Shown in pieces: positions 21,639 through 25,400 of a DNA stretch of 64,000 bases. A program made the translations under genes and the position numbers. The DNA lies in contig DUQS01000068.1 in the NCBI GenBank assembly GCA_012837685.1, forward strand, positions 1 through 64,000. Direction: 5' to 3'. The DNA is from Bacteroidales bacterium. Lineage in GTDB: Bacteria > Bacteroidota > Bacteroidia > Bacteroidales > Paludibacteraceae. Each line of letters opens with the position of its first letter. Position 1 is the stretch's first letter. Under the pieces are notes generated by a model. The model was not told where the DNA came from. It was given only the letters and a program-made list of their open reading frames with translations, and did not search any database.

Positions 21639-21699
21639 GCCTTCAGCAAAGTCCATTCATTTCTAAATAACGAATGTGCCTACCTGAAGGCCATTTTTT
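21639..21699 (+). promoter_or_regulatory. Leader hairpin with T-run before the NYN gene
   Basis: Outer stem GCCTTCAG (21639-21646) with CTGAAGGC (21684-21691). Inner stem CATTC (21654-21658) with GAATG (21672-21676), extended by TT/AA beyond one mismatch. A CATTTTTT run follows at once, as in intrinsic terminators. It lies wholly between the promoter and the ATG at 21710, so it could work as an attenuator or as a target for the gene product. Confidence 0.65.
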
Positions 21700-21709
21700 A
21701 TTGTATATT

Positions 21710-22450
21710 ATGATCAAGAATAACACAAAAAAACAACAAAGTGATTCAACCTATCAGTCTACACCTATTAAAGTAGCAGTATTAGTTGATGGAGGTTATT
21801 TTATTAAACGGTATAATGTTTTATACAATACAAAAAAAAATAAAACACCTATAGATATTGTACAAGATTTATATTATATCGCTCATTCTCATGTAGGTAA
21901 CAATAACTATCTGTATCGTATTTTTTTCTACGATTGTGAACCGTTTGCTAAAAAAGTTCATAATCCAATTTCAAAGAAATGTATTGATTTTTCGAAAACA
22001 CCCGAAGCAGAGCGTCAACGGCAAATTTTTGAAGAGTTAAAAAGGAAAAGGAAGGTAGCTCTTCGTCTTGGAACACTTAAAGATTGTCGTAGTTGGAATA
22101 TCTATCCATCTATACTTAAAAAATTATTGTCTAAAGAAATAACAATAGATAAAATTACTGAAAAAGATGTTTATTATTCTTTACGTCAAAAGGGTATTGA
22201 TATGAAAATTGCTGTAGACATCACATCATTGGCGCTTAAAAGGTTTGTTGACAAGATAGTCTTAATTGCTGGTGATTCAGATTTTGTTCCTGCAGCTAAA
22301 TTAGCACGTCGTGAAGGTATTGATTTTGTTCTTGATCCAATGCATTCTAACCATATTGAAAGTTCATTATATGAACATATTGATGGCTTAAAAAGTATAC
22401 CACTTCCTAAAAAAAAAGAAATAACAACTTATTTGGCGCAAGTTTACTAA
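21710..22450 (+). CDS. NYN-domain (PIN-like) protein
   Basis: 246 residues from the ATG at 21710. The NYN/DUF88 fold, a predicted RNase related to PIN domains, is shown by VAVLVDGGYFIKRYN with its first acidic residue, KIAVDITSLAL, and LIAGDSDFVPAAKLARREG with the GDSDF acidic pair. The C-terminus (HSNHIESSLYEHIDGL) is also family-like. The first 20 residues are basic and polar. Base composition is AT-rich compared with nearby core genes. It is preceded by a strong promoter and a hairpin leader; it may act on its own transcript, but that is inference. Confidence 0.88.
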   Translation: MIKNNTKKQQSDSTYQSTPIKVAVLVDGGYFIKRYNVLYNTKKNKTPIDIVQDLYYIAHSHVGNNNYLYRIFFYDCEPFAKKVHNPISKKCIDFSKTPEAERQRQIFEELKRKRKVALRLGTLKDCRSWNIYPSILKKLLSKEITIDKITEKDVYYSLRQKGIDMKIAVDITSLALKRFVDKIVLIAGDSDFVPAAKLARREGIDFVLDPMHSNHIESSLYEHIDGLKSIPLPKKKEITTYLAQVY

Positions 22451-22490
22451 CTTGTGCTAATTTTATACCGGAGAGGTTTTTAAAAAAGTT

Positions 22491-22964
22491 TTATACAAGT
22501 TTAAATCGTACGCGCCAAACGCCATTGGTATAGGTGTGGCTGATAATTTTAAAAGTGCCGATTTCCGATGTGTTGGCAATGTGTGCGCCAATACAGGCGC
22601 AGATGTCGTAATTGCCTATTTGGATTAAACGTATAGTTTCGTGTGCATTGTCGGGAAGTTTACTCAAATCGACCAAATCCGCAGCATCTTGATACGTGGT
22701 TAAATCCTCATAAACAGTCAGATGCGAATTAATAACATCATTCACGCGATTTTCAATTTCGGTAATTTGCGCTTCGGTGGGCGCAGCTGCCAAAAGGTAA
22801 TCGCATTTGCTCTTTTTACGCTCAATGTGGCTGTTGCGCGAGCGCGGGCAACCGAACATTCGCACCATAGTTTGGTTTAGAATATGTTCGGTGGTATGCA
22901 TTGGCGCAAGTGCGTCATTTTGAAACTTGGTTTTTGCCGCATTTGTAAAATTGTTCTGTTCCAT
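22491..22964 (-). CDS. AlaX-like tRNA editing domain protein
   Basis: 157 residues from the ATG at 22964 (MEQNNFTNAAKTKF); an ATG 11 codons upstream is also open but gives a poor start. The protein matches the second additional domain of alanyl/threonyl-tRNA synthetases: HTTEHIL (HxxxH) and CIGAHIANTSEIG (CxxxH) supply the zinc ligands of the editing site, so it should hydrolyse mischarged tRNA in trans. It also has the CPRSRNSH and CDYLL elements. It converges with the NYN gene. Confidence 0.85.
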   Translation of the reverse strand: MEQNNFTNAAKTKFQNDALAPMHTTEHILNQTMVRMFGCPRSRNSHIERKKSKCDYLLAAAPTEAQITEIENRVNDVINSHLTVYEDLTTYQDAADLVDLSKLPDNAHETIRLIQIGNYDICACIGAHIANTSEIGTFKIISHTYTNGVWRVRFKLV

Positions 22965-23030
22965 TTTTCCATGTTTAAGTGATAGGCAAATGTACAAAAA
23001 TTACATCTGAAATTAAAACTGCGCAATCAT

Positions 23031-23061
23031 TTTGTTTGAAAGAATAATCTCTGTACCTTTG
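23031..23061 (+). promoter_or_regulatory. Promoter of the TonB-receptor transcription unit
   Basis: TTTG (23031-23034), 19 bases, TACCTTTG (23054-23061): an exact consensus match. It is the only good promoter seen between the divergent editing-protein gene and the receptor gene at 23454. Confidence 0.8.
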
Positions 23062-23074
23062 CAGCCGATTTTCA

Positions 23075-23428
23075 ATGTTTATGCATAAACTCAGTACGTC
23101 ATCATTGTCGGTTATCCGATTTCGCCGTTATAGCCGTAAAGCTTACGCCGTATTTTGCTCGTTGCATCGCCATGTAACTATCGGGCATCTTGCGTGCGAA
23201 ATTGCCGACAGACAATTGAAAAAATCTAACGTTGCCTGCCAAATTGCTGATTACGACTGTTTTGATGGCAGCGAAAATCCATTGGAAACGTTCCCCGAAG
23301 AGGAAAATTTTGCCTTTTTACAACTGCCTGTTGTTAATGTTACTACACGAAATGAAGTTGCTGCTGCTGCGGTAGCGCATCTTATTGTATATTCATTTTT
23401 AAGCTATCGGCACTTTTGTGGTCGGTAG
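23075..23428 (+). CDS. Small leader protein upstream of a TonB-dependent receptor
   Basis: 117 residues, no signal peptide. The N-terminal block FRRYSRKAYAVFCSLHRHV followed by TIGHLACEIAD is reminiscent of short proteins that I recall in front of TonB-dependent receptors in other Bacteroidales; the rest is acidic and unremarkable. The second in-frame ATG is two codons in. The stop codon (23426-23428) lies inside the 3' arm of an intrinsic terminator, 25 bp before the receptor gene. This suggests that its translation could open that hairpin. Its own biochemical function is unknown. Confidence 0.65.
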   Translation: MFMHKLSTSSLSVIRFRRYSRKAYAVFCSLHRHVTIGHLACEIADRQLKKSNVACQIADYDCFDGSENPLETFPEEENFAFLQLPVVNVTTRNEVAAAAVAHLIVYSFLSYRHFCGR

Positions 23429-23435
23429 CTTTTTT
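23401..23435 (+). terminator. Intrinsic terminator/attenuator before the TonB receptor
   Basis: 5' arm 23401-23413 (AAGCTATCGGCAC), loop TTTT, 3' arm 23418-23431 (GTGGTCGGTAGCTT), with one bulged G and two G-U pairs, then TTTT. It lies 18 bp before the receptor ATG with no promoter in between, so receptor transcripts must pass it. Confidence 0.8.
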
Positions 23436-23453
23436 ATTTATAATTAGTTTAAA

Positions 23454-25400
23454 ATGAAAAAGTTAGTCTGTTTTATTTTAGGAATTTCGGCATTTGCGGT
23501 TACTGTGGCTACTGCTCAAATGCCATCCGACACTATTCCAATGCACCAACTCGATGAAGTAAACGTGGTGGCTACCGGTAGCCAAGTAGCAAGTGATGCG
23601 CTGTACACAATTATTTCACTGTCGGCTGCCGAAATTGCAACTTTGCCGGTGCAAACTGTCAACGAATTGCTCGATTATTTGCCCGGAGTGGATGTGCGCA
23701 CAAGAGGTGCCAACGGTGTTCAGGCAGATATTTCAATGCGTGGCGGCACTTTCGATGAAGTGCTGATTTTGCTCAATGGCGTGAATACTACCGACCCGCA
23801 AACAGGGCATGCGTCTCTCGATATTCCTATCGAACTGAATATGGTGGAACGCATTGAAGTGCTGAAAGGTACGTCGATGAACTTATTCGGGCTTTCGGCG
23901 TTTAGCGGAGCTATCAATATCATTACCAATACCACTGATAAACGACTTGTAAAAGCTGCCGTAACGGGCGACACATACGGCTCTTTTGCGCCCAATTTGG
24001 GGTTTAACTATTCCACGCGTAAATGGCGTTTTATGGCGTCGGCAAGTTATAACCAATCGAATGGCTACATTAAAAACACGGATTACAAATACGGAAATCT
24101 TTTTTTTCAGAGCGGGTATAGGGATTCGTTACTTGGTAATTGGGATTTTCAAATTGGCGGTCAGCTCAAGCAATTCGGTGCTAATTCGTTTTATTCGTTA
24201 AAGTTTCCCGACCAATTTGAGGCGACAAAGACGCTGATTGCAGCTTTGCGTTGGAATAAGCATTTGGGAGCTTTCGGGCTTGAAGCATCGGCATTTTACC
24301 GCACGCATTACGATAGATTTGAACTTTTTCGTGAAAACGTGGCTGCGTTTCCTTCTTGGTACACGGGACACAATTATCATGTTACCGATGTGGCGGGTGG
24401 AAATGTAAAAGGCGCTTGGTACTCGCGCATCGGCAAGCTGGCTGTTGGTGTTGAATTGCGTAACGAACATATTTTCAGCAATGTGTTGGGCGATTCGTTG
24501 AAAACGCCGCGACAAGTGCCGTTTGCGCCGGACTCTATTCAGTTCATTTTTGCCAAAAATCGTCTGAATATCAATTATTTTGCCGAGCAATCTTTTTTCG
24601 TCGGCAATTTTTCAGCATCGATAGGCTTTTCGGGGAACTACAACACGCTTTTTCGGCATAATTTTGCTTTTGTCGCCAATGTCGGTTATGCGTTTACCAA
24701 AAACGGCAGTCTCTGTCTTAATGTCAATCGTGCGTTGCGTTTGCCGACTTTTACCGATTTGTATTATAAAAGTGCTACCCAGATAGCCAATCCCGAGTTG
24801 ATGCCGGAAGAGAGTCTGACAACGGAAATAAGTTTGCGCTGGGCGGATTACGGTCTGCGTACGACTTTTAACGTCTATTACCGCATGGGACAAAATATTA
24901 TAGACTGGGTTAAAACGCCCGAAGCTGAAAAATGGCAAAGCGTGAACCATACGCGCATAGATGCCGTCGGCGGTGAGGCGGAAATAGGTTACCGTTATGG
25001 GTATTGGTTAAAAAATATCGCTGTGAGTTATGCCTACTGCCATTTGAATAAAAATGCCGGCGAATTGATGTCGAAATATGCGCTCGACTACTTGAAGCAC
25101 AAACTTACGTTCAATTTGGAACACGGAATCTATAAAGGTTTTGGAGCATCGTGGCAATTAATGTACCAAAACAGAACAGGTAACTATTTGGATATCAACG
25201 GCGCAACAATGGCTTATACCCCTGTTTGGTTGTTTGACGGTCGCATTTATTGGAAAAATCCGACAATTAATGTTTTTGTGGAAGGCAGCAATCTGCTGGG
25301 CACGCACTATTACGATTATGGCGGCATTGAGCAGCCCGGACGTTGCATAAAAGCCGGTATCTGCGTTAATTTAAAATTGAACGAAAAAAACAGTAAATGA
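23454..25400 (+). CDS. TonB-dependent outer-membrane receptor (BtuB-like)
   Basis: 648 residues. Signal peptide (1-22), a plug domain starting at the TonB-box-like region LDEVNVVATGSQ with VNELLDYLPGVDVRTRG and SMRGGTFDEVLILLNGV, then a 22-strand-type barrel ending in an aromatic-rich C-terminus with FVEGSNLLGTHYYDYG. It imports a scarce nutrient using the proton motive force relayed by TonB-ExbB-ExbD. The substrate cannot be read from sequence; BtuB-like (cobalamin or iron chelates) is a class label only. No cobalamin-riboswitch core is visible in the 390-base leader. Confidence 0.92.
   Translation: MKKLVCFILGISAFAVTVATAQMPSDTIPMHQLDEVNVVATGSQVASDALYTIISLSAAEIATLPVQTVNELLDYLPGVDVRTRGANGVQADISMRGGTFDEVLILLNGVNTTDPQTGHASLDIPIELNMVERIEVLKGTSMNLFGLSAFSGAINIITNTTDKRLVKAAVTGDTYGSFAPNLGFNYSTRKWRFMASASYNQSNGYIKNTDYKYGNLFFQSGYRDSLLGNWDFQIGGQLKQFGANSFYSLKFPDQFEATKTLIAALRWNKHLGAFGLEASAFYRTHYDRFELFRENVAAFPSWYTGHNYHVTDVAGGNVKGAWYSRIGKLAVGVELRNEHIFSNVLGDSLKTPRQVPFAPDSIQFIFAKNRLNINYFAEQSFFVGNFSASIGFSGNYNTLFRHNFAFVANVGYAFTKNGSLCLNVNRALRLPTFTDLYYKSATQIANPELMPEESLTTEISLRWADYGLRTTFNVYYRMGQNIIDWVKTPEAEKWQSVNHTRIDAVGGEAEIGYRYGYWLKNIAVSYAYCHLNKNAGELMSKYALDYLKHKLTFNLEHGIYKGFGASWQLMYQNRTGNYLDINGATMAYTPVWLFDGRIYWKNPTINVFVEGSNLLGTHYYDYGGIEQPGRCIKAGICVNLKLNEKNSK

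Follow-up and report, generated by a model that had tools for sequence, protein, structure and literature searches.

The stretch analysed here, referred to as the window, comprises 64,000 nucleotides (positions 1 to 64,000 of the forward strand) of contig DUQS01000068.1 from a Bacteroidales bacterium of the Paludibacteraceae (assembly GCA_012837685.1). Its subject is a short open reading frame (ORF) directly upstream of the gene for a TonB-dependent receptor; the stop codon of this ORF lies inside the hairpin of an intrinsic terminator. The locus consists of the following features.

23031..23061, forward strand: Bacteroidetes-type promoter with TTTG at 23031-23034, a 19-nucleotide (nt) spacer and TACCTTTG at 23054-23061 (read from the sequence)
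23075..23428, forward strand: leader-peptide ORF of 117 amino acids (aa) with its TAG stop at 23426-23428 (ORF call, homologues)
23102..23236, forward strand: conserved N-terminal block of the leader, consensus RFRRWSRKxYAxFxSLGxxVxIGxL (profile match with E 2.2e-23, block alignments)
23237..23400, forward strand: acidic, variable middle of the leader, its frame open until the hairpin (leader alignment, stops by frame in relatives)
23401..23431, forward strand: terminator hairpin AAGCTATCGGCACTTTTGTGGTCGGTAGCTT, the proposed attenuator, with the leader TAG in its 3' arm (folding, position kept in relatives)
23432..23440, forward strand: T-rich tract TTTTATTT of the terminator, directly after the hairpin (read from the sequence)
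23454..25400, forward strand: TonB-dependent receptor of 648 aa with its own signal peptide, probably an outer-membrane biotin importer (Pfam Plug and beta-barrel domains, distribution of BioB and BioA)

A sequence-only reading had described the promoter, the 117-residue ORF, the hairpin with the ORF's stop in its 3' arm and the receptor ATG, and all of them are found at the positions that it gave. It also held that no second promoter precedes the receptor; indeed, the TAnnTTTG element of the leader promoter is the sole instance in 22901-23600. A scan with the Escherichia coli sigma-70 pattern gave no match to this promoter, as expected for the Bacteroidetes type. The 5' untranslated region (UTR) between promoter and ORF is only about 5-15 nt long, and a second ATG at 23081 would yield a leader of 115 aa. 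The hairpin folds with a free energy (dG) of -16.1 kcal/mol versus a mean of -5.6 for shuffled sequences (z = -5.5; none of 200 shuffles equal). The scan that missed the promoter did not report this terminator either, but hairpin folding and a later search both detect it. A single terminator closing a small gene is ordinary, and it is the comparison across relatives that makes the locus remarkable.

Distribution of the leader peptide

The conserved block of the leader comprises its N-terminal ~48 residues, and the peptide has no family match in Pfam or NCBIfam. Of the 61 relatives searched first, 28 have a homologue. A profile built from the N-terminal block matches 169 of 393 genomes of the order, nearly always as one copy per genome, and 220 of 358 genomes of the family. 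In a search across the class (395 genomes), the single match outside the order is genome G560, where a leader of 156 aa overlaps the start of a TonB receptor, the latter judged from sequence. Many leaders also have a weak second motif upstream of the hairpin, roughly LLxxLxxxVxxxxVC (L037, L087, L089, L091 and other bio-type leaders), which could be a stall or interaction site.

The final counts refer to 105 distinct loci, ten duplicate or repeated loci having been set aside. In all 105, the block leads only into a biotin operon or into a homologue of the window's TonB receptor. The biotin operons start with bioB or bioA, usually followed by bioF and bioG. Seventy loci have a free leader, encoded separately, before bioB (39), bioA (6) or the receptor (25); L048, scored as TonB by the script, proved to be bioB on inspection. 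The other 35 are in-frame fusions in which the block forms the N-terminus of the downstream protein, the receptor in 32 cases and BioB in three. The sequence-only reading had missed the biotin operons headed by the same leader and the terminator-less fusions to receptor or BioB, as well as the fact that the peptide block itself is the conserved element.

Two further BioB fusions, L150 and L153, occur in the window's own family. L116 (G094), L150 (G1011) and L153 (G1010) are single frames of 817-851 aa in which the leader block is followed by BioB; the L116 frame also holds BioA and is thus a BioB-BioA fusion under the block. In genome G122 (L080), a leader-bioB locus and a block-receptor fusion lie side by side; at L009 and L099, the gene after the free leader encodes a receptor with a block of its own. 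In L028 (G005), a block-bearing ORF of 225 aa with cysteine-rich, zinc-ribbon-like motifs (1429-2106) is situated directly upstream of a receptor with its own block.

In fused receptors, the block directly precedes a hydrophobic stretch that resembles a signal peptide and ends in AxA-like sites; this stretch is absent from free leaders. On the receptor tree, the fused label must have changed no fewer than eight times; the window receptor groups with the free L004 and L017, next to the fused L007. Free and fused forms therefore replace each other easily, an indication that the block has the same function in either form.

The terminator and the end of the leader

A terminator was defined as a hairpin with a T tract and a dG of at most -9.5, located 200-480 nt after the block start. 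By this definition, 62 of 70 free leaders have one; among the fusions only 2 of 35 do, and dinucleotide-shuffled regions contain it in 24 of 355 cases. The hairpin starts at a median of 315 nt after the block start (interquartile range 305-325), and many of the hairpin sequences are unrelated to each other. Of the 62 leaders, 39 have their stop codon past the T tract, 15 have it within the hairpin and eight stop short of the hairpin. All but one of these ORFs (61/62) end at most 14 nt before the hairpin or beyond that point, the exception being the shortened leader L017. The sequence-only reading's prediction of a general arrangement with a conserved terminator overlap has thus held up.

In E. 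coli, ribosomes repress a terminator if its hairpin starts less than ~27 nt from the stop codon or late in the coding region (PMC4824070). The ends of 61 of the 62 leaders fall inside this range. In 16 loci there is a 4-nt overlap of the leader stop with the following start codon, which suggests a coupling of the leader and the next gene. In L109, the leader, the terminator and the receptor are contained in one uninterrupted frame; such a terminator inside a single ORF offers indirect support for translation-dependent read-through.

Conservation at the peptide level

In 61 loci, the stretch from the block to the hairpin has only six stops in the leader frame, versus 187 and 265 in the other two frames. 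Codon choice at conserved block residues mostly follows the usage of the respective genome; strong skews are restricted to serine columns (AGY versus TCN), such as shared ancestry would give. The pooled ratio of nonsynonymous to synonymous substitutions (dN/dS), obtained from six close pairs only, amounts to 0.20 in the block, rises to 0.41 in the middle and reaches 1.27 in the hairpin-coding part. On the basis of these ratios, the frame stops and the codon usage, the front of the leader is selected as a peptide, while its end is free of visible protein-level constraint and keeps the hairpin. As in TnaC-class leaders, conservation is thus found at the level of the peptide and not of the RNA; RNA-level conservation of the block is rejected by the codon tests.

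An Rfam search of the window and 20 loci yielded no vitamin riboswitch, and the whole leader RNA folds no better than shuffled sequences (z -1.4). Wherever a promoter can be placed in relatives, the 5' UTR is short and leaves little room for an upstream aptamer. A conserved RNA aptamer in an untranslated leader, the mark of a riboswitch, was not found.

Biotin synthesis, the receptor and BirA

The distribution of biotin synthesis was compared in 64 block-bearing genomes. Where the leader sits on a bio operon, every genome (17 of 17) has a BioB above the curated cut-off; where only the receptor carries the block, none of the 47 genomes does, the window genome among them (Fisher p = 7e-16, without correction for shared ancestry). 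BioA passes its cut-off solely in the bio-operon group (15/17). The window genome (G000), rated 100% complete, has BirA but no BioB, BioA or BioY, and it therefore probably imports biotin. Likewise, since BioB is absent from all 47 receptor-only genomes, the receptor is probably an outer-membrane biotin importer. It occurs where synthesis is lacking (BioB 0/47 versus 17/17) and is linked to the biotin regulon by the adjacency in G122, as would be expected of a biotin receptor. BioY was considered as its inner-membrane partner and rejected, being absent from the window genome.

Both by family and in the PDB, the receptor matches BtuB and its relatives best, and it has no close solved structure. 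A cobalamin receptor was discarded as its identity: the BtuB-type match is weak, with 98 bits versus a B12-receptor cut-off of 599.7 bits, and there is no cobalamin riboswitch. The receptor thus resembles BtuB-type TonB receptors in its best matches, but differs from them in this low score, in the lack of the riboswitch and in a distribution complementary to biotin synthesis.

BirA is present in 14 of 14 genomes tested. In the window genome and in the other birA genes read, the protein starts directly with the ligase domain and has no N-terminal helix-turn-helix, as judged by reading and not by a domain search. Biotin protein ligases are divided into Group I and Group II, the latter being the BirA repressor type (PMC4016012). 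Without the helix-turn-helix, the classical BirA repressor is not available, and it appears to be absent from the genomes read. Biotinylation of the leader by BirA was also considered and is unlikely, as the lysines of the block are kept in only 71 and 75 of 112 rows.

A probable translation-dependent attenuator for biotin acquisition

It is fairly probable that the 117-residue ORF is the regulatory leader of a Bacteroidales biotin-acquisition regulon, and that the overlapping hairpin is a biotin-controlled, translation-dependent transcription attenuator. The layout, its conservation, the selection on the block as a peptide, the loss of such constraint at the hairpin and the exclusive linkage of the block to biotin synthesis or the receptor come from the comparison of genomes; from these we infer the ribosomal control of the terminator, biotin as the signal, its sensing by the nascent block and which way the switch works. 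Biotin status is very probably the signal, because the same leader heads biotin operons. The proposal of the sequence-only reading that translation of the leader into the hairpin would switch the receptor on is supported by these comparisons.

When biotin is scarce, the first ribosome would translate the whole leader close behind RNA polymerase and cover the 5' arm of the hairpin, so that transcription could run into the receptor gene, or into bioB or bioA in relatives. When biotin is plentiful, a signal would be transmitted via the N-terminal block, most likely by arrest or slowing of the ribosome that holds the nascent peptide. The ribosome would then be kept off the hairpin, which would fold and end transcription. 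Biotin may act on the nascent block directly or through a partner, for instance BirA with biotinoyl-AMP. In proteins with a fused block, either receptor or BioB, the same arrest would directly shut down translation and a terminator would be unnecessary. What the free and fused forms have in common is the block and not the terminator. It could be imagined, as a serious possibility rather than the expected outcome, that the ~48-residue block is a portable nascent-peptide biotin sensor, which makes translation and thereby transcription biotin-dependent wherever it is translated, and which replaces the missing BirA repressor in much of Bacteroidales.

Several observations weigh against the attenuator. 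A terminator is not detectable in eight of the 70 free leaders. No canonical arrest motif was recognised in the leader, and a long distance separates the conserved block from the hairpin downstream, the median of 315 nt being counted from the block start. AlphaFold predicts no confident fold for the leader (predicted template modelling score, pTM, 0.29), so that a ligand-binding peptide is neither supported nor excluded. The narrow basis of the dN/dS figures belongs here as well. Finally, 27 genomes were selected for the absence of a block match in the first searches, and seven of them have BioB without the leader (a better profile revealed a fused block in one of the 27, G033); other control of biotin genes must therefore exist in the order.

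Alternative explanations

The leader could simply encode a small protein of the usual kind and end in a terminator of its own, in which case the overlap would be no more than a compact gene end. The receptor would then be expressed at a fixed low level via leaky read-through, and the peptide would act in trans, for instance with BioB or the receptor. Purifying selection on the block fits such a gene, and most terminators lie close to stop codons in any case (PMC4824070). On the other hand, an ordinary gene explains poorly why the frame stays open to the hairpin while the middle varies, why most leader stops lie beyond the T tract or why 16 loci overlap the next start. A block that is fused to BioB, and to receptors at or before their signal peptide, would be unsuited to a free-standing partner protein, and the peptide has no confident fold. 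This explanation seems unlikely.

To be given about the same small weight is a translation-controlled attenuation in which the signal is not biotin or is not read by the nascent block. The leader would respond, for example, to the general translation rate, to pyrBI-like pausing of RNA polymerase or to a protein such as BirA with biotinoyl-AMP, bound to the RNA or the growing chain. By itself, the terminator overlap would already be enough for a pyrBI-like rate sensor, and BirA was found in every genome tested for it. A pure rate sensor, however, leaves unexplained the conservation of the peptide, the restriction to biotin genes and this receptor and the existence of terminator-less fusions; that the regulated genes are biotin genes also argues against UTP acting through polymerase pausing as the signal. 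A version mediated by BirA could still hold. If, with opposite polarity, stalling near the hairpin kept it open at low biotin, the fused genes would be poorly accommodated.

An incidentally translated RNA regulator, either riboswitch or thermometer, would suit the terminator and a position before vitamin genes, where riboswitches are common, but it is very improbable given the genome-like third positions and the dN/dS of 0.20 in the block, the lack of an Rfam vitamin riboswitch, the leader folding at z -1.4 and the short 5' UTR. Equally far-fetched is the idea that the block extends the signal-peptide region and slows or directs the export of the receptor, with the free leaders as decayed duplicates: the fused block does stand directly before the hydrophobic stretch with its AxA-like sites, but the block also precedes or is fused to the cytoplasmic BioB and BioA, and the free leaders lack that stretch and are yet under purifying selection.

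Relation to known systems

In the pyrBI attenuator of E. coli, the leader ORF spans an intrinsic terminator, and the hairpin cannot form while a ribosome follows RNA polymerase closely. This attenuation is discussed elsewhere (PMC4824070). The window has the same layout, in which the leader ORF runs into an intrinsic terminator ahead of a structural gene, and 61 of 62 leaders in relatives reach to within 14 nt of the hairpin or past it. Here too the leader stop is near the downstream start, and a ribosome would likewise prevent the hairpin. Unlike pyrBI, the biotin leader would control biotin genes instead of pyrimidine genes, its peptide is conserved across an order, it is 2-3 times longer and its block is also fused to the regulated proteins.

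SpeFL is an arrest peptide that senses ornithine. TnaC fulfils such a function for tryptophan (PMC8429421). The biotin leader is reminiscent of both in that a conserved nascent peptide lies upstream of genes handling the presumed signal molecule. Unlike in these systems, the block is N-terminal and about 48 aa long, and passage rather than stalling would give expression, arrest being putative here. As in Group II BirA repression of bio operons (PMC4016012), genes for both biotin synthesis and uptake would be controlled, but the control would be by attenuation. Neither an arrest peptide for biotin nor a Bacteroides biotin leader peptide or biotin TonB receptor was found in the open-access papers searched.

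Bacteroidales constitute much of the human gut flora, and their control of biotin supply appears to be undescribed. The leader provides a concrete, testable regulatory element together with a probable outer-membrane biotin importer. Free leaders, in-frame fusions and a terminator inside an ORF represent natural experiments on combining a nascent peptide with a terminator. A biotin-sensing arrest peptide, if true, would add biotin to the few small molecules that nascent chains are known to read.

Neighbouring genes and other observations

On the reverse strand, positions 22491-22997 encode a divergent small protein of the alanyl-tRNA editing family (tRNA_SAD/AlaX-like), the start of which adjoins the leader promoter. 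Further upstream, on the forward strand, lies the gene for a NYN-domain protein (21674-22450), with a terminator-like hairpin at its end (22433-22460). In a related genome, a match to the SAM-II (S-adenosylmethionine) riboswitch above the gathering score is located on the reverse strand of L114 (4628-4688).
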